This document shows positions 14,201 to 63,725 of a stretch of 64,000 nt of DNA, piece after piece. Numbering within the stretch: the first letter of the stretch is position 1; each line of letters opens with the position of its first letter. The notes beneath the pieces are model-generated. The model had not been told where the DNA came from, did no database searches, and saw only the letters and a program-made list of their open reading frames with translations. The position numbers were made by a program, and so were the translations under genes. Source of the stretch: a virus; IMG/VR virus record IMGVR_UViG_3300032116_000082, positions 30,272 to 94,271 of that record; one strand, written 5' to 3'.

Positions 14201-17200
14201 CCAGGTAGCGCCGCGCTCAGGTTCTTGACAAGCTCCTCGAGCGTCCGATCATACTGCTGATTTTGCGGCAGCTTCCCTCGGTCAACCTGATCCTGGACCT
14301 GACCCGCCGCCGAAAGGAACGCCGTGCGGACCTGGCTGGACAGTTCGTTCGTGTCCATCCCGTACTGGGTTGCCCGCCGGGAATATTCCTGGAAGAAGTC
14401 AGATTCGCGGAAGGTCTGCAGGTCGAATTCATCCGGCGTACGGACATCAAACTGATCTTGACGATTCTGGAACCACTTCAAGATCCCCACAATCACCGCG
14501 ACTCCCGCAGCGATAGCGGCGATCGGCGCAGCATACCCAGCAACGCCCGCAGCGAGACCAGCGCCTCGGACCGCCGCACCACTCAGGAAACCACCGCCAG
14601 CACCAGACGCAAATTGCATCAGCCGCGGGGCCAGCGCGGATCCAATTCGCGCAACCGCGAAGCTGGCACCAGCCGCCGTCAACATTCCGGCAGGACTCGA
14701 TAGGCCCTCACCAGCAGCAGCGCCCGCACGCAGTCCGGTCTTGAGCAGGCTGGCCACACCGGTGTCGTTGAACAACGTCGAGGCAAGCTTCGTGAGGGAC
14801 GTATTGAACTGCGCCAGTGAGGCGGATACGGTATCCATGCGCAGCTTGACACGCTCTTGCGTGTCCCCGTAAGCCAGGGCGCTCTCGTTTGCGACCTTGA
14901 GGACCTTCGTGTTGTAGTCGTCGAGCAATGCCGCCGCCACGTTCGACTGACGGGCACCCGCGAACGTCGTCAGCAGCTGCTGTGCCTTGACCGTATCGCC
15001 GCTAGCCTTGAGCTCCTGATACCGGTTAGCAATATCTCCAAGAATGTCCTGCAACGGACGCAGCTCGTTCGGGTTATCCCCCGCCAGGTTAATCTTAAAC
15101 TGCTCCTGCAGCGCCTTGGCGACCTCAGGAGCACCGAGACGAGAGATGATGAACCGCAGGGACGTGGCCGCCTGCTCGCCAGTGACACGCGTCCGTTCAA
15201 TGATCGCCGTGGACGCACCGATAACCAAGTCGAGGGCGTCGACTGCGCCCAGGGCCTGTGGCTGCAGCTGTTGCGCGAGCGAGCCCGCCCGCTGGATTGC
15301 GTTGGAGAGGTCCTGCGCACTGACCGCGTACTGCGACTCAATTCGGGAAATACGATCCAGAATATCAAACGCGGTGACCTGCCGGTCCGTAATGTTCTGG
15401 ACCGCGATGAGCATTTCGGTTGCCTGCTGCGCATCAAGCCCGGCGCCAATCTGGGCGGCCAGCGAGGCCCGCGTCAGGCTGATCGTTTCATTGGGGTCCG
15501 CACCCGTCTGCGCAAACAGCTTGGCGGAGCGCATCGATTCCTGGACGGACACCCCGTATTCCGTAGCGGCGCTGAAAACGCCCGAACCGATCGCGGCAGC
15601 CTGACCGCCCGATCGGGTACTCAGCACACCTTGAATGTTCTTCAAGTCCGTTTCAAACTGCACCGCGGCAGCCGATGCCTGACGAATCTCGTTCGCGATC
15701 GTGTACAGTATTCCACCCGCCGTCATATAAGCGGCGAGGTTCTTGAACTTATTGACCACGCGGTCCATCATCGATCCGCCAGCTTCCGCGTGATCAATGG
15801 ACGCCTGCGTCACCTTCAGCAGGGCGTTGTACAGCTTGCCCAACTCGCCGTTGAGCTGCCCGTACTTTGCCTTGAGCTTGTCGACGGAGCGCTCGGCCTG
15901 TGGAACGTTCAGGTCGTCATACCGCTTCCCAATGAACTCCTGCAATCCGGCACGAGACTGCTCCAAGCTCTTGCGACGCGCCTGAATCCGTGGATCATCG
16001 CCTGTTAACAGGGCTGATTCGGCATCAATCGTTCGAAGCTTCTTCTCTGCATCCAAGATGGACCGATACTGATCACCGAACGCGTTACGCGTACGCGCGG
16101 CATCGATGACAGCCGTCGCGGCGGCAGACACCTCATTGTTCCGTCCGGAGAAGAACCGAGGATCGGAAGAACTCATCGCGCGGGCGTTCATCGCAAACGT
16201 CTGCATCAGTGCATCCATCTGCGCACTGTTCTGGGCAATCTGGCGCGAGGTGGTGCGCGTGGACATCTGCGCACCCACCTGGGCATCGAACGTGGCCAGA
16301 AGGTCCTGCGCACGCATCTGGGAATTGCCGATCTGATTCCGCCCACGCAGGATGAGCTCCCGCAGGACCGCCGGATCCGTCCCAAGGACAGGAGCGGTTC
16401 CAGACAATGCCGGGCTGCCGGTCAGTGTCGGCATCGTGTCGTCATACCGGACACCACGACCGCCGCCGTATGCCTGGCGATTGATCAGCCGGTCCAGCTC
16501 GCCCTTGGTCTTGATCTCCTCACGGGACAGCCGATCGGCGTTCTTATCTGCCAACGACGCCCCAGCCAGCCCACGCGTCGTCGCCAACGCATTGACCTTC
16601 TCCAAGGCTGCCGCATACGGCTTAAGAACTTCCGCCAGACGCTGGAACTCCTTAATGACCGGGTCAAACTGTACGGTCGCCAGCTCCGACATCGTCTTGT
16701 TAATGCGGGCCAGAGCGCCTTCGACCCCGTTCATAGCGTCCAGGAATTGCTTGGCGGCGGTCGTCTCGGCGGACATGGTCTGGCCGAGTTCGTTGACACC
16801 TTGCAGCGGATTGTCGAGCAAACGCGAACGGACACCGCCCTTCCGGACATAGGCCCGCTCCTTGGGATCCAGGAGCGCCCCGTCCATGATGTCGCCACCA
16901 ACGGCCATCGGCGACGTGCGATAGTAGTAGCGCCCGCCGAACTCCAGCTCACGCTGCCATTCAAGCATCTGTTCGCGCCGATAATCCGTGAAGTTCTTGG
17001 GATCTTCACGTGCCATGGTCTCATATCGCCGGAACATCTTCTCGGCAAAGGCCCGGCGCTGCTCCGTCTGTGGAGCAAACTCACCACCACGACTAATGAA
17101 CCCACGAAGCCACCGCTCACGAACCTCGCGATCCGGCACGTCGCGGTAACCGTCCATGAACGGCGCGGTATCAATGTCCAGGTTGGGATTGAAGGTCGGC

Positions 17201-19212
17201 AGCGGAAACGTCCCGCGCGGACGCGTCAGCTCAAACGCAGTTTTTGCGTCGTTGAACTGTCGCTGAAAGCGCCGTACGCCTCCAAGCGCACCCATCGCCT
17301 GGCGAGAATCCCGCGGAATGTTCCCGGCAATAACGGAGAGCAGGTTATTGCCCGTGATTTCGTCCGCCAGCTCCTTCGGGATAGCAGAGATCTGCCCAGA
17401 GCCCATCTTCTTGAGGGCCGCGGCATACTTGTTGAGCGTGTCGCGAACGTACTGTGCCAACGTGCGCGGCAGCAGCAGGGCTTCCTGCGTCAGATTGGGG
17501 TTCTCTGACGACAGGCTCTTCACGCGCTCCTGCGAGAAGTTGAGTTCTGCCAACTGGCGATTGATCTGCGTTTCCCGATCCCGCACCTGCTGTTGCGACA
17601 GATTCGGGTTGTTGATCGTGCGCTCGCGATCCATTTCGAGCTTCGCCCGCAACTGCGTGGCCGCCTGCATGACCCAGTTATTCGTATTGCGGAACGTCAG
17701 CTGGCCACGCTCGAGCTCCGCCTGTTCCAGCTTCTTCTGGTTTTCCCACGCCTGATTTTGGATCTCCTGGCGCTTGGTCGGGTCCGTCTCACTACGAAGG
17801 CTCTTGCCGTAAATGGCCCGCTGCTGCCGCAGCTGATCGATCTGCTCGTCAAGCGCCTTGCCCTGCGGACTAAAGGCGACACGTGCAGACATCCGCTCAA
17901 ACACTTGCGGAATGGCCATGACGCCAGCATCCGCCGCCCGCTGGAACATGCTGCCTTCACGCGTACTCAGCCCAGAGAGGAACTGGGCTGCCCGCCGCTG
18001 GGCGAGGGCCTCGTGGCTCTGCGGCGCCTGCTCAAACACCGCCTCCGCCTGGGCCCGCTGACGCGAGCTCATGAAGTTCGGACCCCCTGCTGGACTCGTA
18101 CGGAGCATCTCCGCATCCATCTGCTGGATGTGCTGCTCCATAACCATGGCTTCACCGCGCAGGTCGTCGAGCTTCTTGCGACGCTCCGCGATCGCCTGAA
18201 CCAGCCCCTCCTGGCCTCGGAACTGCTGTCCAGCTTTTGCCTTCGCCTCCAGGTTGGCTAGCTTCGTCTCATACGTGCGAAGCTGATCCTCCGCCGTCCG
18301 CATATCGGCGCGTACTCGGTCCAAGCTCTCCGTCTGAGACTGGCGCGAACGGCGCAGCTGCTCAGGGTCAGTGCCGTACGCGGTCTTACGAAACACATCG
18401 GCACCCCACTTCGCCTCACCGGGAGACACTTCGCCATAGTACTGCTGACCGCCGCCGCCCATCGCGAGACCATTGCGGACCGCTTCGGAAATAGCCGTGG
18501 CCATTCCTGCCGTCGCGTCGGCGATACCTGAACGCAGTGCGTCGGCAAGCCGTGCGGCACCGGTTTCGAACGCCTTGTTGATGACGGAGGCGTCGATGGC
18601 CAGGCCGGGCGTGCGGCCGGACGCCGTAGTTTCCCGGACGACCTGCGACTGCTCGACCAGGCGCCGACGACGGTCCGCCAACCGCTGACGAAGGTCACCC
18701 TTCGTCAGGTCAAACGGATCGTCCCCTTCGAACCCGCTGCCTAGGGCCGACCGCAACGCGCGAACGTGCTTGTCCGTGATGACCTTGGCACCCTTATCCA
18801 ACTCATCAAGCAGCTTATTGACCGTATCGATGTTGCGAATCTGCCGGTCGAATCGGGTAGGCACCGGACGGCTGCCGCCACCGCCCATGCCGGAGACCAT
18901 CTGCGCCAGCTTACTGATCGACTGCTCGAGCGCCGTGGTGTCGACCTGCACGCTTCCGCCACCACCGCCCCCGCCACCGTCGCCGCCAACTGCATAATTG
19001 ACACGCCCGCCCCCGCGGGAGAAGCCCTTGCTGACCGCCTGGCCAATCTCCTTGGACAGGCTCTCGAGGGACGTGGCGTTGACGCGCACGTCAAACTCTG
19101 CGCCTTTTCCAGACAGCTGCTGGATGGCAACAATGGTATCGTGCAGCTTCTGGAGCTCACCGAGCTTGTCCAGCTGCACAGAAATGAGATAATTCAACCC
19201 ACTTGTTGCCAT
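11233..19212 (-). CDS. Tail tape-measure protein (2659 aa)
   Basis: By far the largest alpha-helical protein here, just upstream of the tail-tip genes. The N-terminal 1100 residues are rich in Gln, Arg, Ala and Glu with long coiled-coil segments. Residues about 1185-1420 hold the conserved tape-measure core (AAVQFETDLKNIQ, then TEYGVSVQESMRSAKLFAQT and QAATSLRFIISRLGAPEVA), as in the TP901-type tape-measure family. Hydrophobic Gly/Ala stretches near residue 1560 and near the C-terminus (GPVGGAIGGVLGGLVGGLL) fit membrane-insertion segments. The start at 19212 has a GAGGA site seven bases upstream. With the usual rule of about 0.15 nm per residue, the tail would be close to 400 nm. No lysozyme motif was noticed. 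Confidence 0.93.
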   Translation of the reverse strand: MATSGLNYLISVQLDKLGELQKLHDTIVAIQQLSGKGAEFDVRVNATSLESLSKEIGQAVSKGFSRGGGRVNYAVGGDGGGGGGGGSVQVDTTALEQSISKLAQMVSGMGGGGSRPVPTRFDRQIRNIDTVNKLLDELDKGAKVITDKHVRALRSALGSGFEGDDPFDLTKGDLRQRLADRRRRLVEQSQVVRETTASGRTPGLAIDASVINKAFETGAARLADALRSGIADATAGMATAISEAVRNGLAMGGGGQQYYGEVSPGEAKWGADVFRKTAYGTDPEQLRRSRQSQTESLDRVRADMRTAEDQLRTYETKLANLEAKAKAGQQFRGQEGLVQAIAERRKKLDDLRGEAMVMEQHIQQMDAEMLRTSPAGGPNFMSSRQRAQAEAVFEQAPQSHEALAQRRAAQFLSGLSTREGSMFQRAADAGVMAIPQVFERMSARVAFSPQGKALDEQIDQLRQQRAIYGKSLRSETDPTKRQEIQNQAWENQKKLEQAELERGQLTFRNTNNWVMQAATQLRAKLEMDRERTINNPNLSQQQVRDRETQINRQLAELNFSQERVKSLSSENPNLTQEALLLPRTLAQYVRDTLNKYAAALKKMGSGQISAIPKELADEITGNNLLSVIAGNIPRDSRQAMGALGGVRRFQRQFNDAKTAFELTRPRGTFPLPTFNPNLDIDTAPFMDGYRDVPDREVRERWLRGFISRGGEFAPQTEQRRAFAEKMFRRYETMAREDPKNFTDYRREQMLEWQRELEFGGRYYYRTSPMAVGGDIMDGALLDPKERAYVRKGGVRSRLLDNPLQGVNELGQTMSAETTAAKQFLDAMNGVEGALARINKTMSELATVQFDPVIKEFQRLAEVLKPYAAALEKVNALATTRGLAGASLADKNADRLSREEIKTKGELDRLINRQAYGGGRGVRYDDTMPTLTGSPALSGTAPVLGTDPAVLRELILRGRNQIGNSQMRAQDLLATFDAQVGAQMSTRTTSRQIAQNSAQMDALMQTFAMNARAMSSSDPRFFSGRNNEVSAAATAVIDAARTRNAFGDQYRSILDAEKKLRTIDAESALLTGDDPRIQARRKSLEQSRAGLQEFIGKRYDDLNVPQAERSVDKLKAKYGQLNGELGKLYNALLKVTQASIDHAEAGGSMMDRVVNKFKNLAAYMTAGGILYTIANEIRQASAAAVQFETDLKNIQGVLSTRSGGQAAAIGSGVFSAATEYGVSVQESMRSAKLFAQTGADPNETISLTRASLAAQIGAGLDAQQATEMLIAVQNITDRQVTAFDILDRISRIESQYAVSAQDLSNAIQRAGSLAQQLQPQALGAVDALDLVIGASTAIIERTRVTGEQAATSLRFIISRLGAPEVAKALQEQFKINLAGDNPNELRPLQDILGDIANRYQELKASGDTVKAQQLLTTFAGARQSNVAAALLDDYNTKVLKVANESALAYGDTQERVKLRMDTVSASLAQFNTSLTKLASTLFNDTGVASLLKTGLRAGAAAGEGLSSPAGMLTAAGASFAVARIGSALAPRLMQFASGAGGGFLSGAAVRGAGLAAGVAGYAAPIAAIAAGVAVIVGILKWFQNRQDQFDVRTPDEFDLQTFRESDFFQEYSRRATQYGMDTNELSSQVRTAFLSAAGQVQDQVDRGKLPQNQQYDRTLEELVKNLSAALPGFANIGDPAALAAEALALVRSTATYGLAVPDTMTSGLRKDLADLFSEVDKSFGDLMKTLKNSSEQEMLVDYNGMPGSGRRVKVTNRFSFNDFFEQYSYAGQQFMFANNLRAPGTRGTFADMAGRLTFGQELQQLDEYARTQLLVNANQRSQLKAAEERLRQSNQTITPQAVIQSAAQAGNLNMQQQGELSGAYYRLGNQRQLAADLIGVINKAVGNDGDQRIKAIQRGLGTVGEAATPGGAFVEAFQQAVDLARAELMKTAEAINIQTAGMKEYKDRLLKLNDSLTRTSQAAAVTSKALDFSIRDRMFEPIMQFASRMAEIGTEERLSAQYGTGFDSVGARAQAARQMLIGMDQVPIRLLTDRAKLAASVLSGGTAVGADAEVLRQIQVEEGGVRSGALGAGIANDPAVIAALSGGRKRDIEKLNAMRQQYVAATQKGLTDVISFGLRSDSPEELQVAAKELQNVLDALGAFGDVKTKEQLNALAKLEGTLAERREKARKVLDDMILAEVERERKRNEIQVQADNARANAQGRFTLEQALLQGDFALQQLDPRNPMVTLNSQQALAQLAYNNQIAQATIARDAALAEANLMPDGTPKDQALAKARRDFANTQSTADRERMAAQYNTVATLDGQLTRRRQDEAMQLVQDMTNPMRNVLMSYRNFNVEGRNQMFEAMGQAAQARLVDVFMRRAFSETGVLGSVLRDGFNNGALTTETHIEAGFRNGVRDASIELRNALQGALSATNISPVGGGVAGAGAEGTAAAAAGAAAAAGGALLSGGTPVDRVGVTLGTSTMDAQGTRGGNSSISTSSRGGSWKSAGEAALVLAGSLAGGQIGNNNSPYKDANFAQEGASIGAMIGTMTPLGPVGGAIGGVLGGLVGGLLKKNVEDGEKQITALELIERNTRQQIQAVENQTRMLQLDSRFMNVPTGFVVPTFRPFGANSSSSGGNVSMNITVNAAPGQDEQKVAALVADAIRNELRGAGSAFDIRR

Positions 19213-38237: not shown

Positions 38238-38701
38238 GACAGCGTGAGAATTCGAGAAGACGGCAGGGCCTCGTGCCCCTGGCGAACCAGCGTTTCGAGC
38301 CGCAACTGGAGATTCTGGAGACTATCCTCGGCCCCCTGCCGGGTCTCTGGCGGCAGTGCGCCCATGGCGAGCTCTAGGTCCAGCTGGGTCCGCAGCTGAA
38401 GCTGCTCCGACCGGACCTGCTGAAAGTGCTGCAGTCGAGCGATGTGGGCCTGGACATACTCCACCGCGGCGTCCACATCCGCACACCCGGTACGCTCAAG
38501 AAACAGACGCTCCAGACTCTGAAACCGGCTAGTCAGCGTGGCCAGACTCTCCTCAACTTTGGCGCGGGTGTCCGCATCCGTGTCCGAATCCACGGATGCA
38601 ATGAGGACCTGGGCCTGGGCAACCCCCTGTTGCGTCTGCTCATACAGCGATGCAATAGCTTTCAACTCTTCAACCTTGAAAATCAGCTGCTGTAACTTCA
38701 T
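38234..38701 (-). CDS. Coiled-coil protein of unknown function (155 aa)
   Basis: ATG at 38701 overlaps the HNH gene's TGA (ATGA) and has AAGAGAG seven bases upstream. The whole chain is Gln/Leu/Glu-rich amphipathic helix (LATLTSRFQSLERLFLERTG, then QLQLRTQLDLELAMGALPPE), with no membrane segment, zinc site or enzymatic motif. It is embedded in the replication/nucleotide block. A structural or DNA-metabolism accessory is possible, but no function can be assigned. Confidence 0.6.
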   Translation of the reverse strand: MKLQQLIFKVEELKAIASLYEQTQQGVAQAQVLIASVDSDTDADTRAKVEESLATLTSRFQSLERLFLERTGCADVDAAVEYVQAHIARLQHFQQVRSEQLQLRTQLDLELAMGALPPETRQGAEDSLQNLQLRLETLVRQGHEALPSSRILTLS

Positions 38702-39015
38702 GAAGTAGCTCTCTTGTGGGGGCGTGTACGTGGAAACGATGCCCAAACGCCTGGCGAGATTTCGAGGAGACGGAGATCCGCCTCTCCACGGTGAATGTTT
38801 TCGTGACATGAAAAACACACGGTGATCAAGTTGGCCGGTTCATGCGTGCCGCCCTGACTCCGGTACTGTATGTGATGAAGTTGGAGGCGGTTCTCGCCCC
38901 CAACTCCACACAGTTGGCATTGGTCGTTGTCTCGATCAAGAACGGCACGTCGGACGTGCTGTGAAATACGCGTGGGATCTTCACGAGCCCTATGGCTCGC
39001 CAAATCCTCAATCAC
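38698..39015 (-). CDS. HNH endonuclease (105 aa)
   Basis: Contains CQLCG, then RLQLHHIQYRSQGGTHEPAN followed by LITVCFSCHENIH. This is a complete HNH (beta-beta-alpha metal) nuclease with two CxxC zinc pairs, the His-His pair and the Asn/His helix. Small free-standing HNH proteins like this can be packaging nucleases, restriction-like nucleases or homing enzymes. Distance from the terminase (four genes or more) leaves all open. The GTG start at 39015 shares bases with the stop of the upstream membrane protein gene (GTGA). Confidence 0.85.
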   Translation of the reverse strand: MIEDLASHRAREDPTRISQHVRRAVLDRDNDQCQLCGVGGENRLQLHHIQYRSQGGTHEPANLITVCFSCHENIHRGEADLRLLEISPGVWASFPRTRPHKRATS

Positions 39016-40062: not shown

Positions 40063-40326
40063 TTACACAACAAAGCCGTATTGCGTCCCGCAATCGTTGC
40101 AATACAGCTCGCCGTCTTCGTAGCGATCGGAATCCAGCAAGACGACATTCGTGCTTAAACACGCCATGCATACCGGTACGTCTTGCGGGACCCGGTGCAG
40201 TGCGCTCACTACCGGTGGACGGTTGGTCTGTTCACGAATCATGAATCGTGACCATTGGCCATCTTCAGACCGCTGCCACAGCATCGTGGTAGCGACAACC
40301 GGGCGTTTTGGATCAAACCGACTCAC
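40063..40326 (-). CDS. Zinc-ribbon protein after the DNA polymerase (87 aa)
   Basis: GTG at 40326 overlaps the polymerase stop (GTGA) with AAGGA nine bases upstream. The C-terminal half has CMAC and CNDCG, a four-Cys zinc ribbon. The N-terminal half is Arg/Trp-rich (MLWQRSEDGQWSRFMI). A small zinc-ribbon gene directly after the polymerase suggests a replication or transcription accessory, but there is no direct evidence. Confidence 0.65.
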   Translation of the reverse strand: MSRFDPKRPVVATTMLWQRSEDGQWSRFMIREQTNRPPVVSALHRVPQDVPVCMACLSTNVVLLDSDRYEDGELYCNDCGTQYGFVV

Positions 40327-42623
40327 GCCGCCATTTCCTTGGTCCAATACGGCACTACACCCTCAGAACCCTCTGGAAACTCTGCCGCAACCGGCACATC
40401 GGGGCAGTAGAAGCGTCCTGCCTGTTCCATAAGCTCTCTCATCAACGGCGCGAACTCCTGGGCGATGGAATCATGTACCTCACACACAATCTCGTCATGA
40501 ACGAGATTCACCACGAAGGCCTTGTCCTGCCAGCCGCGATCGTCAATCAGTCGTTGAATTAAACACGCCGCGGCTTTCGTCATAGTCGCGGATCCGCCTT
40601 GAATCGGGGCGTTGGATCCTTCGGTATAGGTGTTTTTAGAGTCGGGCGGGAAGAATCTGATCCGACCGCAGGGCGCTCGGACGTAGGTCACCATGTCCCC
40701 AGCGACCTCATCCCAGATTTTCGGCGCGTGTGGATTATTGGGATCCGCACGCTGAGAGCAGAGGTCCTGGTACTCCAAGACCTTCTCGTGGACCTCAAAG
40801 AACCGGCGATGTAGCCCCTGGGCATATTCGAAGCTGGGGGCCTCAACCTGACCGGTCATGATGGCATCGGCCAGTCCTAGGGTTAGCTGATCGCGGAGCT
40901 TTCTGGCACCGGACCGATAGGCCATCGCCAGCACGACGGCCTTGAAAATCTTCCGCTCGAGCTTGCCTTCCGGCGTGTGCTTGTCTGGCCTGTGGCCCAG
41001 CATTGCCTCGGCGACTGACAGATACAGGTCGTCATTCCGTTCATAGGTTCCGATATACACCGGATCCTTCGACACCTGGGCCAGAAGCCGAGGCTCCTGC
41101 TGCGAGTAGTCTGCAATAACAAAGGAATACTCGTCGGCAGGGATGAAACAATGCCGGTACCGAGCGTCTCCGGGAACGTTCTGCAGGTTGGGAGTAGTGC
41201 TCAAACGCCCGGTATTCGTTACCGCCTGATGCACTTCGGTATGTACACGGCCAGTATCCGTTCGGACGTTCTTCAGCAGCCAGTCATTACCAAAGGTGTC
41301 ACAGCGAATATCGTACTTGGAATACTCCATCAACAAATCAACAATATCCGAAGGCAGCTGCCCACGGCACTTCCGGAGCGTCAAGGTGTTTTTGTCCGAT
41401 TCGGTTAGCAGGCAATACTGATACTCGGATACCACCCAGTCCGGAATGTCACGAACGTCGACCGATCGCCCGCGCTCCTCCTGCTGCTGCCGCCAGTCAC
41501 GACCGAATAGCTGCTTGAGCTCGTTGAGCCGGTCCACAGACGTCACTACCTCGTAACTCCATTGACGACCCTCACAGATCTTCTTGATCGCCCACTTGAC
41601 CTGTTCCGAACTGGAGTAGTTCAGCGGCTTGTTAAGCTTCGGGTAGATTGGTCTCTGCTTGAACGTATCGGTGTCGAACAGGTCTGGCTGCATGGTGTAC
41701 TGCCGAACCAGATCGTCCAGGGCCGCCTGTGCCTCAGCCCGCTTGGCCAGCGCCTCCTGCCACAGGGCTCGCCACTGGGACCGATCCACCCGCATCCCGT
41801 GGTGCTCAAGCTCACCTAGAACCGGGATCAGCTCCATCTCGACCTTAATGATGCCCCGCAGCCCACGTTCCTCGATCAAAGTGCGTTGCTTCTTCGCAAT
41901 GACGAACGGGTAAATGACGTCGCTCGCGGCATACACGATCTGGCGCAACGTATGCTGTCCAACGGGAGTCTTGAAGAACCCGGTTCGGAGGGACTCTTCC
42001 TTGTCGATTTCCACCTTGGAGTACCGCTCCATGAGGGCAGCCATGGAGCACAACTTGTAGGCACTACGATCCTCGTTCTTTCCGCGAGCCTCCCCCTTCG
42101 GCGATAGCAGACCAGCGCGGATGATCATCTCGGCAATCTGCGTGTCGGCGAGATTACGGCATCGGACGTCGTACTGTGCGCGGAGAAACCGGTATTCAAA
42201 CCGGACGTTCTGACCCAGCTTGGTCACCTGGCGATTCTCGAGTACGTCGAATACCGGCCGCAGCTGTTCTTTGGAGAACGCACGGACGTCTATCACCACG
42301 GCGTTGGGAAACCGGGGGTCGGCCACCTCCATATTGCCAAGCTGCAGGGTGGCGATCTTCGAGTCGAACGGGTTCAGACCAGACGTCTCAAGGTCCAGGC
42401 CGACCATATTGAGTGTCGCAAGCCACTCCACAACCAGGGGCAATTCCTGCGGCTGTGTCACATACCAATATCGTACGAGCTTACTGGTGTCTTCACTCAG
42501 TGGCAGGTCGATGGTGAATTGCAGCGGACGACCGTCCTGCGGCATATCCAAAACCTGGAGCTTATGCCCGTACCGGATTAGCTCTTCACGCTGCAGGCGC
42601 AACGGCTCAGTCAACGAAAGCAT
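40323..42623 (-). CDS. Family A DNA polymerase with 3'-5' exonuclease (766 aa)
   Basis: Exonuclease: Asp77 and Glu79 in VGLDLETSG, Asn139 and Glu143 in GQNVRFEYRF, Tyr231 and Asp235 in YAASDVIYPF. The exo II acidic residue is Glu where E. coli Pol I has Asp424. Polymerase: motif A around Asp505 (FVIADYSQQEPRLL), motif B from Arg557 to Tyr569 (RKIFKAVVLAMAYRSG) and motif C His709-Asp710-Glu711 (NLVHDEIVCEV). The position equal to E. coli Phe762 is Leu565. No 5'-nuclease domain. It is the replicative polymerase, overlapping the primase-helicase gene by 17 bases. It has no clear ribosome site, so it is probably translated by coupling. Confidence 0.95.
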   Translation of the reverse strand: MLSLTEPLRLQREELIRYGHKLQVLDMPQDGRPLQFTIDLPLSEDTSKLVRYWYVTQPQELPLVVEWLATLNMVGLDLETSGLNPFDSKIATLQLGNMEVADPRFPNAVVIDVRAFSKEQLRPVFDVLENRQVTKLGQNVRFEYRFLRAQYDVRCRNLADTQIAEMIIRAGLLSPKGEARGKNEDRSAYKLCSMAALMERYSKVEIDKEESLRTGFFKTPVGQHTLRQIVYAASDVIYPFVIAKKQRTLIEERGLRGIIKVEMELIPVLGELEHHGMRVDRSQWRALWQEALAKRAEAQAALDDLVRQYTMQPDLFDTDTFKQRPIYPKLNKPLNYSSSEQVKWAIKKICEGRQWSYEVVTSVDRLNELKQLFGRDWRQQQEERGRSVDVRDIPDWVVSEYQYCLLTESDKNTLTLRKCRGQLPSDIVDLLMEYSKYDIRCDTFGNDWLLKNVRTDTGRVHTEVHQAVTNTGRLSTTPNLQNVPGDARYRHCFIPADEYSFVIADYSQQEPRLLAQVSKDPVYIGTYERNDDLYLSVAEAMLGHRPDKHTPEGKLERKIFKAVVLAMAYRSGARKLRDQLTLGLADAIMTGQVEAPSFEYAQGLHRRFFEVHEKVLEYQDLCSQRADPNNPHAPKIWDEVAGDMVTYVRAPCGRIRFFPPDSKNTYTEGSNAPIQGGSATMTKAAACLIQRLIDDRGWQDKAFVVNLVHDEIVCEVHDSIAQEFAPLMRELMEQAGRFYCPDVPVAAEFPEGSEGVVPYWTKEMAA

Positions 42624-44640
42624 TGGGATCGAGTGAGAAGATATCTTTGGCGACCGTCTGCTCGGTCATACTTGGAGCGGGAACAAATTTCGAAACTGTT
42701 TGATGCAGTAAGAGCTCGACGGCGACACCCGCTTCACCCTCACGCTGCTTGACGATCGTGATCTTCCGCTTGGAAATGGCACCTGGCGTACGTTCACCGG
42801 TCAGAATCATGGCTACGTCGGCGTCGGCCTCGATGCGACCGGTGCCCTTAAACCAGTTGATCTGCGGCTCGTCGTCCGCCTCAACCTTCCGCTGCAGTTG
42901 TGAAAACACCACGACAGGCTGCCTCAGAACCTTGGCCATGTACTTAAACTCCATGGACAACCGCGACAACTTCTCGTATTCCGACTGGTGCCCGTTCACA
43001 TCGATGGAGCCGAACTGCAGGTAATCCATAAACACGACCATCGGTTTGCCGATGGACAACTTCTCCCGCAGAATGGTGTCTTCGAGCAGGTTGAAAATGA
43101 GATCCGGTTGGCTAGCGGAGTAATGCAGGTAAATCGGCAGCTGATATAGTCGTTCAGCCGCCAGCGTGACCTCACGCTCCTCTTCGCTGTTGAGCGGATA
43201 GGGGCTGCCGTTCCAAAGACGCTCGCCCCGTATGGCCCGTGAATCCACACCAGACATGCGGGCCAACATGCGCTCCTCAAGCCCTTCCTGGCCGGTCTCG
43301 GCGCTGAATCCCAACACCGGAATGCCTCGCTCGGCCATGGACACCATGGCATCAACCATGAGCGCCGTCTTTCCAATGCTTGGAAGAGCGCCTACGATCG
43401 TGAGCTCCTTCGGGCGAAGGCGTGTATACTGATCAAGACCGGCCGTGCCCCACGTCGCACCTGTCGGAACCTCCCCTCGATTGCGACGCCGCATACGGTC
43501 CAAGGAACGCTTAAAATCCGACCGAAGCATTGGTTCGGTGGTTTCCTTGACCAGCGTGGCTATCGGCGCATCACCGACGTGGTACGGCGCCCCGCCCTTG
43601 CATCCCTTACAGGCCAGATGCGGGAAATGCTCGCGGATGTAGCGGCAACCCACCGGCGGATGACGAAGTGCCTGAGTGTACTTGGCGTCCGTCTCTGACT
43701 CGGAGTATCCCTTATAGTCGCGGCTGATCAGATGGGCCGCCTCACGACCGTTGGCGAAGCAGGTCAGCTGCTGAATAGCGGCGTACCACTGCGGCTCCGG
43801 TAGCCGTTCGCGGTTCTCGAACGCATGGGCCATAAACTGGCACCCATAGTCCGAGATCAGCTTTAGGACCCCATTTAGGGGTTTTTCCGGCCGTCCGCCT
43901 GGATGAGTCTCTCCATAGGGGGCAGGCTCATACATCTCGGTCCTGACACTCGGGACAGGCGCAGCTTCCACAGGAGCATTATCCGCCAGCTCCTGAATGA
44001 CGTATCTGTTGTTGTACCGGACAATCTTGACAAACTCCGCAGGACCAACCGGATCCAGCGTGGTGGTATTCAAGAACACACTGGCGCCGCCGGGCACTCC
44101 AGGACCCAATTGACTCGACCAACCAGCCGGTGCCTCCGCACCGAAGAACGGCAGCGCAATCAGGTTGCCGTAGGGTCTAGACTCGCTGACCGTGGTCTGG
44201 ACCGGGTACAGGCGATCGAAGCTGCTGGCGTCAACCAGAAGCGGCTTTAGGGCTTTTCGAACGTCAGCCGCAGGGACCGGAGATTCGAAAAAGCCCCAGA
44301 CATGGCAACCTTCACCGGATCGGGACTTCTCCAAGTAGACTTGAAGTCCGGCCTCCTGGAATACCTCGAGCTGGTTCAGCGCCTGGTTTAGGACGGAGGT
44401 AGCATCGTCCTCTGCGTCGAAATCCAACGCGAACCAGCAGACCGTGGAATCGGCGAGAAGCTGGTACTGACCAAGCAGGATGCGCCCTGCCAGGTGATCC
44501 TGCAGCAGATCGTCCGTAAGTGGTTCTTTTACAAGGGCATATCCGACTTTTCCAGGCTGTCCATCCTTGACAAACGCCTTGGCGTAGACGTCGCCGCGAC
44601 CACGAAATAGTCGCGTTGTTGCTTCCAGAAGGGTGTTCAC
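42607..44640 (-). CDS. Primase-helicase fusion: AEP-type primase plus DnaB-like helicase (677 aa)
   Basis: Residues about 1-200 match an archaeo-eukaryotic primase of the TOTE/PrimPol kind: catalytic DxD in CWFALDFDAEDD (Asp73, Asp75), SGEGCHVWGFF around 108-118 with His113, and YGNLIALPFF about 157-166. Residues about 330-350 carry CRYIREHFPHLACKGC, a possible zinc site. Residues from about 395 are a RecA-fold DnaB-type helicase: Walker A GALPSIGKTAL (417-427) and Walker B VVFMDYLQFG with Asp539. One protein would unwind the fork and make primers for the polymerase gene that follows. GTG start at 44640 with a poor ribosome site. A classical phage enzyme would carry a TOPRIM domain instead of AEP. 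Confidence 0.88.
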   Translation of the reverse strand: MNTLLEATTRLFRGRGDVYAKAFVKDGQPGKVGYALVKEPLTDDLLQDHLAGRILLGQYQLLADSTVCWFALDFDAEDDATSVLNQALNQLEVFQEAGLQVYLEKSRSGEGCHVWGFFESPVPAADVRKALKPLLVDASSFDRLYPVQTTVSESRPYGNLIALPFFGAEAPAGWSSQLGPGVPGGASVFLNTTTLDPVGPAEFVKIVRYNNRYVIQELADNAPVEAAPVPSVRTEMYEPAPYGETHPGGRPEKPLNGVLKLISDYGCQFMAHAFENRERLPEPQWYAAIQQLTCFANGREAAHLISRDYKGYSESETDAKYTQALRHPPVGCRYIREHFPHLACKGCKGGAPYHVGDAPIATLVKETTEPMLRSDFKRSLDRMRRRNRGEVPTGATWGTAGLDQYTRLRPKELTIVGALPSIGKTALMVDAMVSMAERGIPVLGFSAETGQEGLEERMLARMSGVDSRAIRGERLWNGSPYPLNSEEEREVTLAAERLYQLPIYLHYSASQPDLIFNLLEDTILREKLSIGKPMVVFMDYLQFGSIDVNGHQSEYEKLSRLSMEFKYMAKVLRQPVVVFSQLQRKVEADDEPQINWFKGTGRIEADADVAMILTGERTPGAISKRKITIVKQREGEAGVAVELLLHQTVSKFVPAPSMTEQTVAKDIFSLDPNAFVD

Positions 44641-54935: not shown

Positions 54936-57900
54936 CTACTGGTTGAGTAGCGCAGCAACCTGCGCCTTGAGTGTGTCAATCTGCTCTTGCTGTTCCTTGA
55001 TCGCCTCGATGAGCAGAGGCACAAGACGATCGTACTTCACGGTCAAGTAGTTCTCCCCAGACTTGCTGGAGATCTCGCCAGTCTCCGGATCCGTATGGAA
55101 GTCCACCGGGGCCAAGGTGACCGCTTCCGGCAACACCGCCTGGACCTCCTGCGCCGAGAGACCCACCTGCTGCTTGTCGTTCTGATACCCCAGCGACTTG
55201 GCCAGGGCGTTCTCCACGTACAGGAACCCGCTCAGCTGCTTGACCTTGGCAACCGGCGACGCGATCGCACCAACCCGCGTCTTGAGCCGCTCGTCCGAGT
55301 AGTACGCGGTGATGTCTCCAGTGGCTGCGATCTGGTTCGCAACGTAGAACGCCTTCGCGTTGTATACTCGAACCCAGGTGCCGTCCTCCATGTAGACACC
55401 ACCGCCCCACTGGTTACTATACCAACCCGTGTTGCCAGTTGATCGGAACCAATCGCTGGCGTTCCAGGACGCGGCATATACGTAATCGTTGGACGGGTTG
55501 AGGTAGACCTCTGCCGTGCCGTAGACCGAGTTGCCAGAGCCCCACAGCATCTGGTAGTTGGCGTTGGAGTTGTTGCTATAGTTGATGGTGACCTGGCTAG
55601 CCGTCGTAGCACTAGACGCCGTCGTAGCGCTAGTCGCCGTCGCGGCGTTACCGGTAATGTTGATGCCCCACGTACCAGAGGCTCCAGAGCCGGTCAGCGA
55701 CGGTGCGTAGCTGGTGTAATTGCTGGTCGTGATAGCGCCGATGGCCGATGCGACCGCTTGCGGCGTGTAACTCCGAATGTAGTAATCGCTGGAGTTGAAC
55801 CCTGCAAAGTACGCCAGCCCAGAAGCGTTTCGTTCCGCCCCACCACCACTGGTGTAGAAGTAATTGTTCGCGATATATCCATTACTGTCGCGCTGAACGA
55901 TCGTGTTCGCGCCACTCGACGCATTCTGCGTATACCCGTTCAGCGACCCAGCGGAACCTGTAACGTTAATACTCCACGTACCAGAGGCCCCAGATCCAGT
56001 CAGGCTCGGGCTGTACGAGGTGTAATTACCAGAGTGCAGAACTGTTCGCCACGCGGTAAATGTTGCCCCGGAAGTATGCCACCCGCGGAACCACAAATTG
56101 TCATTTTGGTAACCACCATAGATCTGCAAACCGGTATCGATACCGCGGGCAACGATCAACTGCCCATAACTACCGCCTGGCGAATTGGTCGGTGTAGCTT
56201 CGGCGTTGAAGAATCCAGTGGACAGGATAGAATTGAAATCCGTAGTAAACCGAGTGCCTTCTTGTGACGACGGCAGCGTCGGCTTGCTAGTCACATTGGA
56301 CCAGGCGACAGAGCCTGCACTGCCCGTCACATTGATCGACCAAGTCCCAGAGGCGCCGCTGCCAGTCAGCGATGGGCTGTAAGACGTGTAGTTTCCAGCG
56401 TGCAGGACCTGATTGCTGTCTTGCTTGAGTGCGCCAACTGACACGTTTACGTCGCTGCCAGTAAACACCAGCGTGGCGCTTCCGCCGCGAATGTTCAACG
56501 GCTGATAGGTGCTGGTGCTCCGGTTGTACGAGAGGACGTATCCCGAAGCACCGGAAAAGCCGACTTCTAGCGCCGAGCCCGTATTGCCCGCGCCGTCCGT
56601 GTACCAGCCGCTGAATCGCCCCTGCCCAGACGAGGCGATGTCGGCGCTGAAGGACCGCTGCGAGGTCGTGGCGGCATTCCCCGTGATATTGATGCCCCAC
56701 GTGCCAGACGCACCTGAGCCAGTCAGCGTCGGACTATATGACGTGTAGTTACCGGCGTGCAGAACTTGATTGCCGCTCTGCTGCAAGGCCACCTTGCTAT
56801 TGACGGCGCTGCTGCTCAACTCCAGCCAGTTGTTATTATAAGCGGGCCCTATCCAGAGAATAGACAGCGCGTCCGCACCACCGTTAGCTCCAAACCCACC
56901 GCGGTTCGTGCCTGACGAACCAAGGAAGTACAGACCAGTCGCCCAGCCGCCAGTGTCGCCCTTTATGGAGATCAGGCCGTTGGCCGTATCAACAACAATT
57001 GGTCGCGCACCTGTAAAGGTGTCTCCGGCCTTGTTTACCGGGGTATACCCAAGGGCGGTCGTCACCATGCCAGACGTGATGCCCGTGATATACCCGCTGG
57101 GATTCGTGCTGTTGTATGGGGTGTACCCGAGCGCAGTCGTGACCTGGCCAGAGGTAATGCTGGAGACAGTCGCAGCATTACCCGTAATGCTGATGCCCCA
57201 CGTCCCAGAAGCTCCGGAGCCGGTCAGACTTGGGCTGTAGGACGTATAGTTGCTGCTATCAAGTACAGTCCGCCACGCGGTCCACGAGCCAGTCCCGCCG
57301 ACATTACTAGGATTGCCGGACCGCGTGTAGAGCGTGCCTGTAGAGTAGCTGCCATAGATCTGGGTGATCGTATCCGAGCCGCCATAGATGACAAGCAGCT
57401 GCCCATAGTCCGACGGACGATTCGCTTCCGTGTTCTGAACGCGGTAGAACCCCGAGGTGGTCAGGGTGTTGAGATCAACACCACCAGTGGAGCCGCGAGC
57501 GATGTTCGACACCGTCCCCGCATTCCCCGTGATGTTGATGCCCCAGTTGCCAGATGCGCCGGAACCCGTCAGCGACGGTGCATAGCTATTGTAGTTCGAG
57601 CTATCCAGCTGCGTACGCCAGGCAGACCAGCTGGAATTGTACGCACGCGTGAACGTCTGGCCGGAAGACAGATGTGTCGCAAGCTGACCAACGACATTGC
57701 TCTCGTTACCGTACGTAACAATGGCATAATGCTCATTAGTCGGATTGTTTGCATTCGGATCAAACCGATACGCGCTGCTGACAAAGTTAGTATTGGGATT
57801 TGTCTGGCTGCTCGATGAGCGCAACATAAACCCAGTATATCCGGAAGTGATATATCCGCTGGGATTCGTGCTGTTATACGGCGTATACCCGAGGGCCGTC

Positions 57901-60900
57901 GTGACCTGGCTCGAGGTGATACTAGAGACCGTGGCCGCGTTGCCAGTGATACTGATACCCCAGGTCCCAGATGCTCCAGAGCCAGTCAGGGACGGAGCAT
58001 AAGAGGTGTAGTTCCCGGCATACAGGACCTGACTGCCTCCCTGCTGCAGCGCTCCTCTGACGATGTTGACATTGCCGCCGTGATCAATGCTGACCGCCGT
58101 CTTAGCACCCGTGGCGAACGAGTCGGTCGTTGCCAGGTACATCTTGGTGCCATAAGTGCCGGACGACTGGACGTAGATTCCCGCCTGCGCGTCTCCAGTG
58201 TTATTGAAGGTCCAGGTAATTGCCTGCACCTGGTCATTCGTGTTGTTGCCGTTGAACCGCAGGTTATAACTAGCCGTACCTGGGGTCGTCGTGTTCATCG
58301 TTGAGACGCCGTTCAACGAAAGAATACCGCTAAACGCACCGGTAGTGGCGTTGACCGTACCGCCCGACTGGTTAGTAGCCGTGGTCGCCGTTGATGCTGA
58401 CCCCGCGCTGCCGGTGATATTGATCCCCCACGTACCGGAAGCACCGGAACCAGTCAGCGACGGAGCATAGCTGTTGTAGTTGTTGGAATGGAGCACGCGA
58501 CTCCACGTCCCAATCGACCGCTCGCGAATGTAGAGGTTCGCGGAGCCTTCGGCGGCCCCCACCAGGTCAAACCCACGAGACGACGTATCACCAGCACCCA
58601 TGATGAACCGGTACGACATGACACTACTCATTCCGGTCGGCAGATTCGACGAACCTGACGGATTCGCGAAGATTACGTCATACAGCGCCGGATACGAGTT
58701 GAAGTCATGCGTAACATACGGCTTGCCATTCTGAGCAATCGTCGATGAGAGGGCGTAGCTGGTGTAGTTCCCTGCGTGAAGAACCGTATTTCCATCAACC
58801 GTCGTGCCCGTAGCGAACACGCCCACGCCAGCGACCGTAATGCCGCCGACCGTAGCGCCACTACGCTGAACATCAAACGCGTACAGCGCCGTACTCTTGT
58901 TCGTTGTATCAACGATAAAGTTGGAGCCATCAACATTCGCATTGTTATTCGAGACGAACACATGCGAGCTGACGAACTTGCCCGTTCGCTCCACCCGAAG
59001 CACCTCGGCACCACCAAGCAACCCTTGGAAGAGATAGTGCCCGGCACTCGTGTCTTGCTGGTTAATGCGAAGAATCGGCGTACCTTGAGTGCTAGCAGAC
59101 AGATACGCCCAGGCGGAGGTAGTGGCATTCGCCTGTACGGCATCGGTGATGCCAAACCCGCTCAGCGTCGTGGGCTTACTCGTAATGCCAGACCAGGCGA
59201 CGTTCGTCGCAGTCGCCGCATTGCCGGTGATGCTAATCCCCCACGTACCGGAGGCTCCGGAACCCGTCAGGCTCGGGCTGTACGACGTGTAGTTCCCGGC
59301 GTGAAGAACCTGATTGCCGCCCTGCTGCAGGGTTGTCAGAATGTTGACGGTGCCGGAGGTGTCAATTACCATGCGCTCGGTTGCGGATCCGTTAGTGTAG
59401 AAGCGCAACCCGAAACCAGTCTCCGCGATCAGCGACATATCGGAACTAGAGTCGCCTTCCCACGCGCCACTGAGCCCAACGAAACCAGCCGTGGTGCCAT
59501 TGTTTACAAACCCAACGACGGCTTTGCCGGTGTTCGTATTGTTGATGCGAATTGCCGCATCTGAGCCAACAATGTCAAGTTTGTAGTTTGCTGTCGGACT
59601 CGCCGTCCCCACGCCCACGCGGTTGTTCACCGCGTCCACGTACAGCGTGTTCGTGTCGACCGTCAGGTTCCCGCTGATGACGGCGCTATTAGTGCTAATG
59701 CCAGTTGTCGTGAACGTGGTTGCCGATCCAGCACCACCGCTCACCACTCGAATCCCAGTGCCGTCGATACCGAACCCGAAGTTCGTGTATCCAGCAAACG
59801 TGATGCTCGGGTCCGTCGCAGATCCAGCCGCTGCGGTGATATCGCCGCTCACCGTCAGGCTGCTCAACGTCCCGACGCTGGTGACGTTTGGCTGCGCGGC
59901 GGTCGAGAGCGTGCCCGCTAGTCCCGTCGCCGACAACACACCGGTTGACGGATTGAACGTCAGCTTCGTGGAGGCGACGTTAATCGACGTCGTGGTGCCG
60001 CTCGTGACGTCATCAAACAAGAGGTACCGCGTCGCGTTGGTCGTCGTGTCGTCGGACACCGCCACCGAGGCACCGGCCGAGCCAGTCGAAGCCGAGGTGA
60101 TACGACCCTTCGCATCCACGGTAAACGTGGCGTTACTATACGTTCCGGCAGTAACCCCGCTGTTCGACAACGTCGCAGTAATGGCCGTCGTCCCGCTGCC
60201 AGTCACATCGCCAGACAGCGTAATGGTCTGGTTCCCGCCAGGCGACCAGGAGAGCACACCGGAGCCGTTGGTCGTGAGCACCCGACCCGAAGCCCCATCC
60301 GCGGCAGGCCACGTATAGGCCACGCCGTTCAGCGTGGTGATACCTGTGACAGAAAGCGTCGAGAGGATGCCAACCGAGGTCAGGCTCGAGCTGACCACAT
60401 TGGAGGCGAGGGCCGTTCCGGAGAGCGTACTGGCAGGTGCAACCACCGCCTGAGTCGTCACCGCAGTGACCAAGCCCTTGGCATTGACCGTGACCACGGG
60501 AACCGTCGACGCCCCGCCGAACGACCCGACGTTGCTATTGACCGTCGCCAGCGTCAGTGCCAGGCTGGTGCTGCCGGACCCGGTCGCATCCCCCGTAACG
60601 CTGATCGTCTGGTTCCCGGTCAGATACGTCGCCGTATCCAGGGCCCAGGTGTCCGCCGCGGTCTTCTTGAGGAACCCAGACGTTCCCGCCAGGGCGGCAA
60701 TTGCCGCCAGATCCGCATCATAGGCCTGGACGTTCGTCCCAATGGCAAGGCCGAGGTTCGTGCGCGCGGCCGCCGCATTGGTCGCCCCAGTACCGCCGTT
60801 GGCAATCGCCACCGTGCCGGTCACATTGGCCGCGTTGCCGCTGATGTTGCCGGAGACCTTACTACCAGCAAGTGACGTGATCCAGCTCGGATCTGCGTAG

Positions 60901-63725
60901 CTCCCGCCCACCGTGACGACGGCGTTTCCGTTCTGCGTCAGGCTTCCGGTCACCGCCAAACTGCCAGGAATGGCCACTGCGCCCGCATTCGAGATCGTCA
61001 GGCGATCGGTAAACGGAACGGTCGTGCCTGCAACGCCAACCGGTGCCGTCTTAAAGGCCAAGCCGCCATTGGCAAAGTCCAGCTGGACCGCAAAATCGGC
61101 ACGATCATACGTATACGAACTACCGGTGGTCGTCGTACGATACCCTTCACCGATCGTCCCGTAGCCAAGATCACTACGACCCAGGGTGATGTAGTGAAGA
61201 ATCGAGTACGTCGACGGTGCGGTATGGCCGATCCACCGACCCCCGCTGTAACTCGACACTACCTGGCCGTTGAGATTCGAGGTGCCTGAGACCGTGACAC
61301 TGCTCAGCGTCCCGAGCGACGTAAGGCTCGAGTTCACCACCGTGCTGTTAAGCGTCGTCCCGGACAACGTTCCGGCAGGAGCCACCACCTGCACCGTCGT
61401 GACCCCAGTCACGAGACCCTTAGCGTTCGTCGTAACCACCGGGACATTCGAGGCATCGCCGAACGTCCCGACGTTGCTATTGACCGTCGCCAGCGTCAAC
61501 GCCAGCGCCGTGGTGCCAGACCCAGACACGTCACCGGTGACGGTAATAGACTGATTGCCCGTCAGGTACGCGTTGGTATCCAACGACCAGGTGTTCGCCG
61601 CGGTCTTTTTGAGGAATCCCGTCGTTCCCGTCAGCGCGGCGATGGCCGCAAGATCCGGATCATACGCCTGCACATCGCTTCCGATGGCCACGCCCAGGTT
61701 CGTGCGGGCCGTCGCCGCATCCCCCGCTCCGGTACCACCACGTGCGAGCGCCAGCGTACCAGAGGAAATGTTCGAGGCGTTGGTGGTGTCCGTCGTGGCC
61801 GAGGCAACAAGCCCAGACACCGCGCCTGAGGCAATCGCGATCGGCGTCGAGGCCGCCGCCGTCAGCTGACCCTGCGCGTTGACCGTGAACGTCGCCACAC
61901 TCGAGGCGGAGCCATAGCTCGCCCCAGTGACTCCCGTATTGGTAATGCTGAACGTGTTGCCCGTCTTGGTGAGCCCGGTCCCAGCGAACAGCTGATTGCT
62001 GCTGAAGAGCTGCGAGAACACCAACGGGGTGGTGCCCAGCGTGATCGGGGCATCCGTCGACAAGAACCAGCCCGTGTCCGCCAGCGTCGCGCCGGACTCC
62101 ACGAACAGGAAGATGCCAGGCGTGACCGCTCCTGAGCTATCCGCATCCGCCGCACGTACCCAGGTGCCGTTGGCACCCGTTCCGACGGACTGCACGACGT
62201 AAATGCCGTTCTGCGCTCCATTCGCCTGCGCGCGCACCAGCACGCGATCATTTGCCGCCAGGGTCACTCCGTCCACACTACTCGGAGCTCCGCCAGCAAG
62301 GCTGACGTCGCCGGTGGTTGCCACCCGCGCGGAGGCCTTGAAGTCCAGGTTGCCCAGGGCCAGCAGATCGACGTAGCCCTTATTGACAACGTCGGTATCG
62401 GCCACGGGGTTGGCGACATTGGTCAGCCGCTGCCCATTGAAGGATACCGGGCTCGTCGGCACCGCCATCTGATCCAGCCGATTCGTGCGAACCTGCGTGT
62501 CAAAGTCCGAGATCTTGGCCGAGGTGAGCACCGGAATATCCGTTGCCGCCAGCGTCGTCGCCGCGGTGACCTGGCCCTTGGTGTTGACGGTCAGCTTGGT
62601 ATAGGTCCCAGCCGTCAGCCCCGCCTGGTTTGGCAAGGTGAGGGTAATGGCCGTCGTACCAGAACCCGACACATCTCCCGTAACGTTGATCGTCTGGTTT
62701 CCGGTGAGGCGCGCATTGACCTGTCCCTGCAGCTTCTGAACGGCCTGCAGAATAGAATCGGTCGCAGCCACCGAAGTGTTCGTGCCAACGGCATAGCCCG
62801 TCAGGAGCTTTCCGGTGACCGTCGCGTCCGCAATCGCCACCGTGATCGCCGTCGCACCGCTCCCAGAAGCATCACCAGACAGTGTAACCGTCTGATTGCC
62901 CGTCAACCGGGCATTGACCTGGCCCTGGAGTTTCTGCAGCGCGACCAGAATCGAGTCCGTCGCCGTAAGCGCGGAATTCGCGCCGACGACATATCCGGTC
63001 AGCAGCTTGCCCGTCACCGTCGCATCGGCCAACGACGTCGTGATCGTTGTGGCGCCGCTACCCGTGATATCCCCGCTCAGGGTGATTGACTGGTTGCCGG
63101 TCAGGTATGTGTTCGTATCGAGCGCCCAGGTCGACGCGCCCGTCCGCTTCAGGAATCCTGTTCCGGTAATCGCGGCAATGGCGTCCAGGTCGGCATCGTG
63201 GGCTTGGACATTCGTACCAATCACGAGGCCCAGGTTGGTGCGTGCATCGGCAGCCGTCGCGGCGCCCGTTCCGCCCCGCGCCAGCGCCAGTGTCCCCGAG
63301 CTGATCTGATCCGCATTCAGCGCCGTCAGCGTCGAGCCGTCCGTGCTGTTGACCCAACTCGTCCCGTTGTATCGAATAAACTGACCCGCGGCGGTCCCCG
63401 CAAAGGCGATGTCGGTCAGATTCGTCAGCGCCAGCGACGGCGTCGCCGCCCACGACAGCCCGCCGCTGCCGTTGGTCTTGAGGTATAGGTTCGCAGACTG
63501 CGTTGCCGGGAACGTGTAGGTAATGCCGCCCACCGTGAGCGTCCCGCCCAGGGTGGTCGCACCCGTCACGGAGAGCGTTGCCAGCGACCCAAGATTGGCC
63601 GCGGTGTACCCCGCGATCTGAGAAACCGTCAGCTTACGAGAAGAATTCCCTTGAGTCGTCTCGAGCTGATCCGTTCCAGAAATCGTCGAGGCACTCGGAA
63701 GATCTATAATACGAGCGTTGGCCAT
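54936..63725 (-). CDS. Giant tail fibre with C-terminal S74-type chaperone (2929 aa)
   Basis: N-terminal segment [20 protein letters not shown] would attach to the virion. The first half has repeats such as [20 protein letters not shown] and [20 protein letters not shown]. The second half has nine copies of a unit around [13 protein letters not shown], spaced about 300-800 bases apart, several preceded by LHAGNYTSY. The last 120 residues ([31 protein letters not shown]) are an S74 intramolecular chaperone, which guides trimer folding and then cuts itself off at the Ser/Asp site near residue 2810. The end is a coiled coil. Probably the main long side fibre. The ribosome site is weak (GGACGGG). 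Confidence 0.9.
55660..59290 (-). repeat. Nine-copy repeat family inside the giant fibre gene
   Basis: The codons for LTGSGASG followed by TWGI/NWGI/TWSI recur at about 55675, 55981, 56347, 56703, 57207, 57550, 57967, 58435 and 59249, each with different sequence between. The DNA is similar enough to recombine, so copy number may vary among relatives. Confidence 0.85.

Follow-up and report, generated by a model that had tools for sequence, protein, structure and literature searches.

The locus described here raises the question of whether a phage can carry an archaeo-eukaryotic primase (AEP) and a replicative helicase of the DnaB type in a single polypeptide, and of what such a protein would do in the replication of that phage. 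The window, by which we mean the whole stretch of 64,000 nucleotides that was analyzed, is part of a 94,271-base IMG/VR virus record. Its minus strand contains an open reading frame of 677 amino acids starting with GTG, exactly where an earlier reading made from the letters alone (the sequence-only reading) had placed a primase-helicase gene. Pfam searches and structural modeling delineate two domains in its product, an N-terminal AEP/Prim-Pol domain and a C-terminal DnaB_C domain, with a helical domain containing cysteines between them; in PHROGs, the protein matches DnaB-like helicases and, more weakly, phage primase families. The fusion of AEP and DnaB noticed in the sequence-only reading is confirmed, and its interpretation as an AEP-type primase fused to a DnaB-type helicase is supported. 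The gene is organized as follows.

42607..44640, minus strand: primase-helicase gene, open reading frame of 677 aa with a GTG start
43966..44640, minus strand: AEP/Prim-Pol catalytic domain, residues 1-225 (Pfam, profile and Foldseek)
43597..43884, minus strand: helical Cys domain, residues 253-348, PriCT-like, putative Zn or Fe-S site (model, alignment and NF040561)
42685..43449, minus strand: DnaB_C RecA-type helicase domain, residues 398-652 (PF03796, E=1.2e-35)

The N-terminal half matches the Pfam AEP-TOTE family PF22548 over residues 9-170 (E=1.1e-33, 117 bits against a cut-off of 27). The signatures that had first suggested a primase, namely the DFD of Asp73/Asp75, SGEGCH and LIALPFF, are all in place and can be read in terms of the AEP motif definitions, hhhDhD/E for motif I and sxH for motif II (PMC10345425).

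44416..44424, minus strand: motif I, D73-F-D75, predicted metal ligands, invariant and aligned with the CAPP DID
44302..44310, minus strand: motif II, G111-C-H113 (sxH), predicted nucleotide binding, G111 and H113 invariant
44215..44220, minus strand: candidate motif III, F141-D142 (hD/E), putative third metal ligand

Motif I reads FALDFD from residue 70, motif II is set in SRSGEGCH from residue 106 with G-C-H113 fitting sxH, and GNLIALPFF begins at residue 158. D73, D75, G111 and H113 are invariant in all 24 aligned viral AEPs. F141-D142 appears to be the likeliest motif III. The assignment is qualified: the fusion proteins and the aligned TOTE protein conserve D142, but the Glu found in other phage AEPs lies one residue nearer the following proline. 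In searches with a profile of these AEPs, the top PDB match is to CAPP Prim-Pol structures (7nqd, E=1.7e-27), with D73/D75 lying over the CAPP DID. The AlphaFold model of residues 1-400 has a mean pLDDT of 73.5, higher across most of residues 1-225; its six best Foldseek matches in the PDB are all CAPP (7nqd, 7nqf and 7p9j, from Marinitoga), with target-normalized TM-scores of 0.78-0.80, followed by PrimPol and LigD Pol domains, in agreement with the alpha/beta plus RRM-like fold of AEPs. The sequence-only reading turned on the presence of an AEP fold and on the DxD residues lying in the catalytic site; it holds, since the fold is supported and the corresponding metal-binding pair of CAPP, D177/D179, is essential, its mutation abolishing activity (PMC8211822). 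For CAPPs, DNA primase and polymerase activities have been demonstrated (PMC8211822), and PrimPol-type DNA extension by the AEP half of the window protein is plausible by analogy.

The cysteine cluster reported between the two halves is borne out by C267, C332 and C347, invariant in all five aligned proteins (the window protein, two relatives and two further phage proteins), and by C344, present in four of the five. Residues ~253-348 are helical in the AlphaFold model. The same Cys module is encountered in Pseudomonas phage Rollin, after an AEP-type primase whose AEP match is weak (E=0.0007) and before a DUF927 helicase, and in a gut phage, after an AEP-type primase and before another helicase in a protein with RepB_primase and D5/DUF5906 domains. 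The NCBIfam CAPP profile NF040561 spans residues 5-342 of the window protein (model positions 125-450), which shares with CAPP the succession of an AEP and a Cys-containing PriCT-like domain, whereas in the one TOTE protein tested it covers the AEP only, without the Cys domain. The scores of this profile, 83 bits for the window protein and 91-95 bits for its relatives, lie below the CAPP type A cut-off of 200 bits. The window protein further differs from CAPPs in that it has no N-terminal TPR, carries a DnaB domain fused at its C-terminal side and is encoded by a phage gene adjoining polA; no cas gene is named among the genes that were scanned. The C-terminal domain of CAPPs is PriCT-like with conserved cysteines (PMC8211822) and was modelled in contact with the initiating nucleotide (PMC10345425); by analogy, the Cys domain may have a similar role. 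Because this domain taken alone finds no convincing match in Pfam, 'PriCT-like' denotes here a resemblance and not an assignment.

The helicase half gives PDB matches to replicative DnaB and contains the DnaB Walker motifs that the sequence-only reading had described.

43366..43392, minus strand: Walker A, GALPSIGKT, residues 417-425 (alignment)
43015..43038, minus strand: Walker B, VVFMDYLQ, residues 535-542 (alignment)
42742..42750, minus strand: KQR, residues 631-633 (K.R.G conserved in the alignment with phage DnaB)

Walker A, FSAET (the region of the catalytic Glu), Walker B, SQ, IEADAD and KQR all align with phage DnaB proteins, and KQR occupies the place of the DnaB arginine finger, whose role we presume from DnaB in general. 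The DnaB N-terminal domain PF00772, found in ordinary phage DnaB, was not detected by Pfam in the window protein or its relatives. The full-length model is of low confidence (pLDDT 70.9, pTM 0.50).

As the sequence-only reading had proposed, the gene precedes one for a family A polymerase; the end of the primase-helicase gene and the beginning of the polymerase gene share 17 nt.

40323..42623, minus strand: family A DNA polymerase with a 3'-5' exonuclease domain, 766 aa (Pfam DNA_pol_A, E=4.5e-47; exonuclease, E=1.6e-19)

The fusion is present in three viral populations: that of the window, a second one (L011) whose protein is 79% identical with the same length and start, and a third one (L099 and L100, identical in this gene) whose protein is 67% identical to that of the window. 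Both domains are recognized well beyond the cut-off in the window protein and in its two relatives. In all three, polA directly follows the fusion gene. An assembly chimera is ruled out, since the fusion recurs in the two other populations with conserved gene order. Where dS is not saturated, Nei-Gojobori dN/dS ratios are ~0.08-0.18 for the AEP and DnaB halves and 0.08-0.30 when the AEP, Cys and DnaB parts are all taken, the lowest being that of the AEP between the window and L011 (0.08); all domains of the fusion are under purifying selection where dS can be estimated. No second primase or DnaB was found: Toprim_2 has no match in any of the four records (own, L011, L099 and L100), the DnaG Zn ribbon has none in the own 94-kb record, and DnaB_C matches once in each of the four records, in the fusion gene itself. 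The own record further encodes a SNF2-type helicase, a clamp-loader-like AAA protein, a class II ribonucleotide reductase, an integrase and, according to PHROGs, RuvC-like and dNMP kinase proteins.

We regard the fusion, with a probability of about 80%, as the phage's own replicative primase-helicase, comparable to T7 gp4 but with an unrelated primase, because neither the 94-kb record nor its relatives yielded a DnaG-type primase; as the records are of uncertain completeness, a DnaG gene could lie elsewhere in the phage. The DnaB-type RecA domain would probably form a hexamer, move 5'-3' on the lagging-strand template and unwind the fork, and the tethered AEP domain would lay primers on the exposed single strand; its metal ligands would be D73/D75 and probably D142, and G-C-H113 would bind the incoming nucleotide. 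Between the halves, the helical domain with its four cysteines would serve as the PriCT or primase-large-subunit part, helping to hold the template and the first nucleotide, and the primers would be handed to the co-encoded family A polymerase. It is through this scheme of unwinding, priming and hand-over that the fusion would work like T7 gp4. The functions ascribed to the AEP and Cys domains are presumed from relatives at ~20-40% identity. Against this role, the fusion lacks the DnaB N-terminal domain, which normally aids ring assembly. T7 gp4 likewise has an N-terminal primase and a C-terminal RecA-type ring helicase in one chain, in a phage that also encodes a family A polymerase; its primase is, in contrast, of the Toprim/DnaG type with an N-terminal zinc domain, neither Toprim_2 nor DnaG Zn ribbon being matched in the own record of the window, whereas the fusion has an AEP-type primase and a four-Cys domain between its halves.

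One could instead imagine that the AEP, besides priming, carries out long stretches of DNA synthesis at the fork, leaving the family A polymerase a secondary part. The nearest solved relative, CAPP, is indeed an active and strand-displacing DNA polymerase (PMC8211822, PMC10345425) and the AEP-helicase ORF904 synthesizes kilobases (PMC10345425). We nevertheless consider such a full Prim-Pol replicase unlikely: a family A polymerase equipped with a 3'-5' exonuclease domain adjoins the fusion in the fusion phages, and characterized AEPs are devoid of proofreading (PMC5862659).

The origin of the AEP half bears on a second alternative. When 38 AEPs are placed in one tree, the fusion proteins fall into a single clade (100/96). 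Bacterial TOTE primases group with this clade (100/97), and the stand-alone phage primases that were sampled branch elsewhere; the bacterial sequences were picked for similarity to the window protein and CAPPs were left out, so the tree informs on relative closeness and not on the direction of transfer. TOTE-type proteins also provide the nearest AEP domain by sequence, with 31-44% identity in the best segments. This grouping, together with the match to a Pfam family named for TOTE, could suggest a TOTE-related factor acting in conflict or anti-defence and not a replicative enzyme. The helicase of TOTE proteins is, however, of the SF2 DEAD/DEAH type, and the window protein, which has the AEP-TOTE domain, has no fused SF2 helicase and carries DnaB_C in its place; among 80 genomic AEP loci, an SF2 helicase is found in 74 and DnaB in none. 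As the fusion gene moreover overlaps polA and no other primase was found with Toprim_2 in the four records or with the DnaG Zn ribbon in the own record, a role in conflict seems very improbable. It is equally hard to credit that the AEP half has no catalytic activity and serves as a DNA-binding or loading module, with priming left to host DnaG, which DnaB-type helicases elsewhere recruit, for even if motif III is a tentative placement, all 24 AEPs have the same motif I and II residues and the AEP dN/dS between the window and L011 is 0.08.

A replicative primase-helicase thus remains our preferred reading. Environmental phages of 36-38 kb carry a DnaB-like gene beside an unfused 300-aa AEP gene at 74 loci (contigs L013-L090; for instance L058:363-1448 and 1397-2368). 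Simple fusion of such neighbors is not favored, because in the loci inspected the DnaB-like gene lies just upstream of the AEP gene, the reverse of the order in the fusion, and these AEPs are on other branches. Stand-alone phage AEPs, of the phrog_21866 and 300-aa types, thus share the Pfam domain and, at the 74 viral loci, the adjacent DnaB-like gene; they differ in being unfused, with the helicase gene upstream and not downstream, and in occupying separate branches of the AEP tree. Searches started from the single protein or from full-length alignments retrieved no fusion beyond the window, L011 and L099/L100. A profile search found the AEP-TOTE domain in none of the 80 viral DnaB ORFs nearest to the window protein, and no phage or plasmid record covers 80% of that protein.

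The general AEP-helicase design is already known, since PrimQH-DnaB fusions, predicted structures in BFVD and a four-in-one replicase are on record. AEPs are nearly as frequent in phages as DnaG primases, and PrimQH AEPs are reported fused to DnaB, RepA, DUF927 or VirE helicases (PMC5862659). PrimQH proteins likewise align an AEP, a PriCT or Zn-binding domain and then a helicase, DnaB included; as described, they are set apart by another AEP family (PrimPol-PV1), by their location in integrated mobile elements and by a usual C-terminal winged helix (PMC5862659). In BFVD, the best predicted-structure matches to the AEP-Cys part are two uncultured Caudovirales proteins, A0A6J5NZ70 (604 aa, annotated DnaB-like) and A0A6J5RPM6 (686 aa). 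They are again the best matches when the full-length model is used, aligning over 692 and 721 columns, respectively, so that predicted viral structures with a DnaB annotation and this order of folds are already known; their identity is 16-19% and the annotation shown does not name an AEP domain. The four-in-one phage replicase comprises an SF3 helicase, a PriS-like domain and PolB (PMC12205980). The sequence-only reading had set the gene against phage primase-helicases that are mostly of the TOPRIM type: the AEP-DnaB combination is real, but its rarity was overstated in view of the PrimQH fusions and the BFVD matches. What is distinctive is the joining of a CAPP/TOTE-class AEP, grouping with bacterial TOTE primases, to DnaB, and in the literature searched we found no description of such an AEP, followed by a four-Cys domain and carried on a DnaB ring, in combination with a co-encoded PolA.

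The fusion unites in a single polypeptide a replicative ring helicase and a primase of the class encountered in CRISPR adaptation and in TOTE systems, and links phage replication enzymes to the primases of bacterial TOTE systems. It also offers a compact single-chain system for asking how an AEP primase works when attached to a DnaB ring and whether a phage fork uses DNA-rich primers. Going further, a possible but doubtful proposal is that a CRISPR/TOTE-class Prim-Pol on a hexameric DnaB ring makes mostly-DNA primers, with one 5' ribonucleotide followed by dNTPs as in CAPP, that the lagging strand would consequently need little or no RNA-primer removal, and that these phages and bacterial TOTE systems exchanged the primase half.

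Several observations concern the phages themselves. A tyrosine integrase gene lies at L009:7903-9090 (record position 7903-9090), from which the phage may be temperate. PolA has Leu at the position of E. coli 762 in all three fusion phages (window 40323-42623, L011:8012-10324 and L099). A virioplankton survey linked Leu762 PolA to non-ring helicases and to the lack of ribonucleotide reductase (PMC6302109); in the present phages, the helicase that accompanies it is a ring DnaB, and the own record also encodes a ribonucleotide reductase, of class II. Residues 72-305 of PolA match the NCBIfam model of the aminoadenine polymerase DpoZ (E=7e-27, well below the cut-off); aminoadenine (Z) DNA was considered from this partial match and rejected, no PurZ-type adenylosuccinate synthetase being found in the record. 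Very long open reading frames occupy the minus strand of the window at 11233-19212 (2659 aa), 54936-63725 (2929 aa) and 4428-10394 (1988 aa), and L011:1512-5258 encodes 1248 aa consisting mostly of repeats of a unit of the kind ASAVDDSTDAFGTATVEVGAVTLT. Finally, a small open reading frame at 38698-39015 of the window displays the HNH-like pattern CQLCG...LHHI...C..CH.
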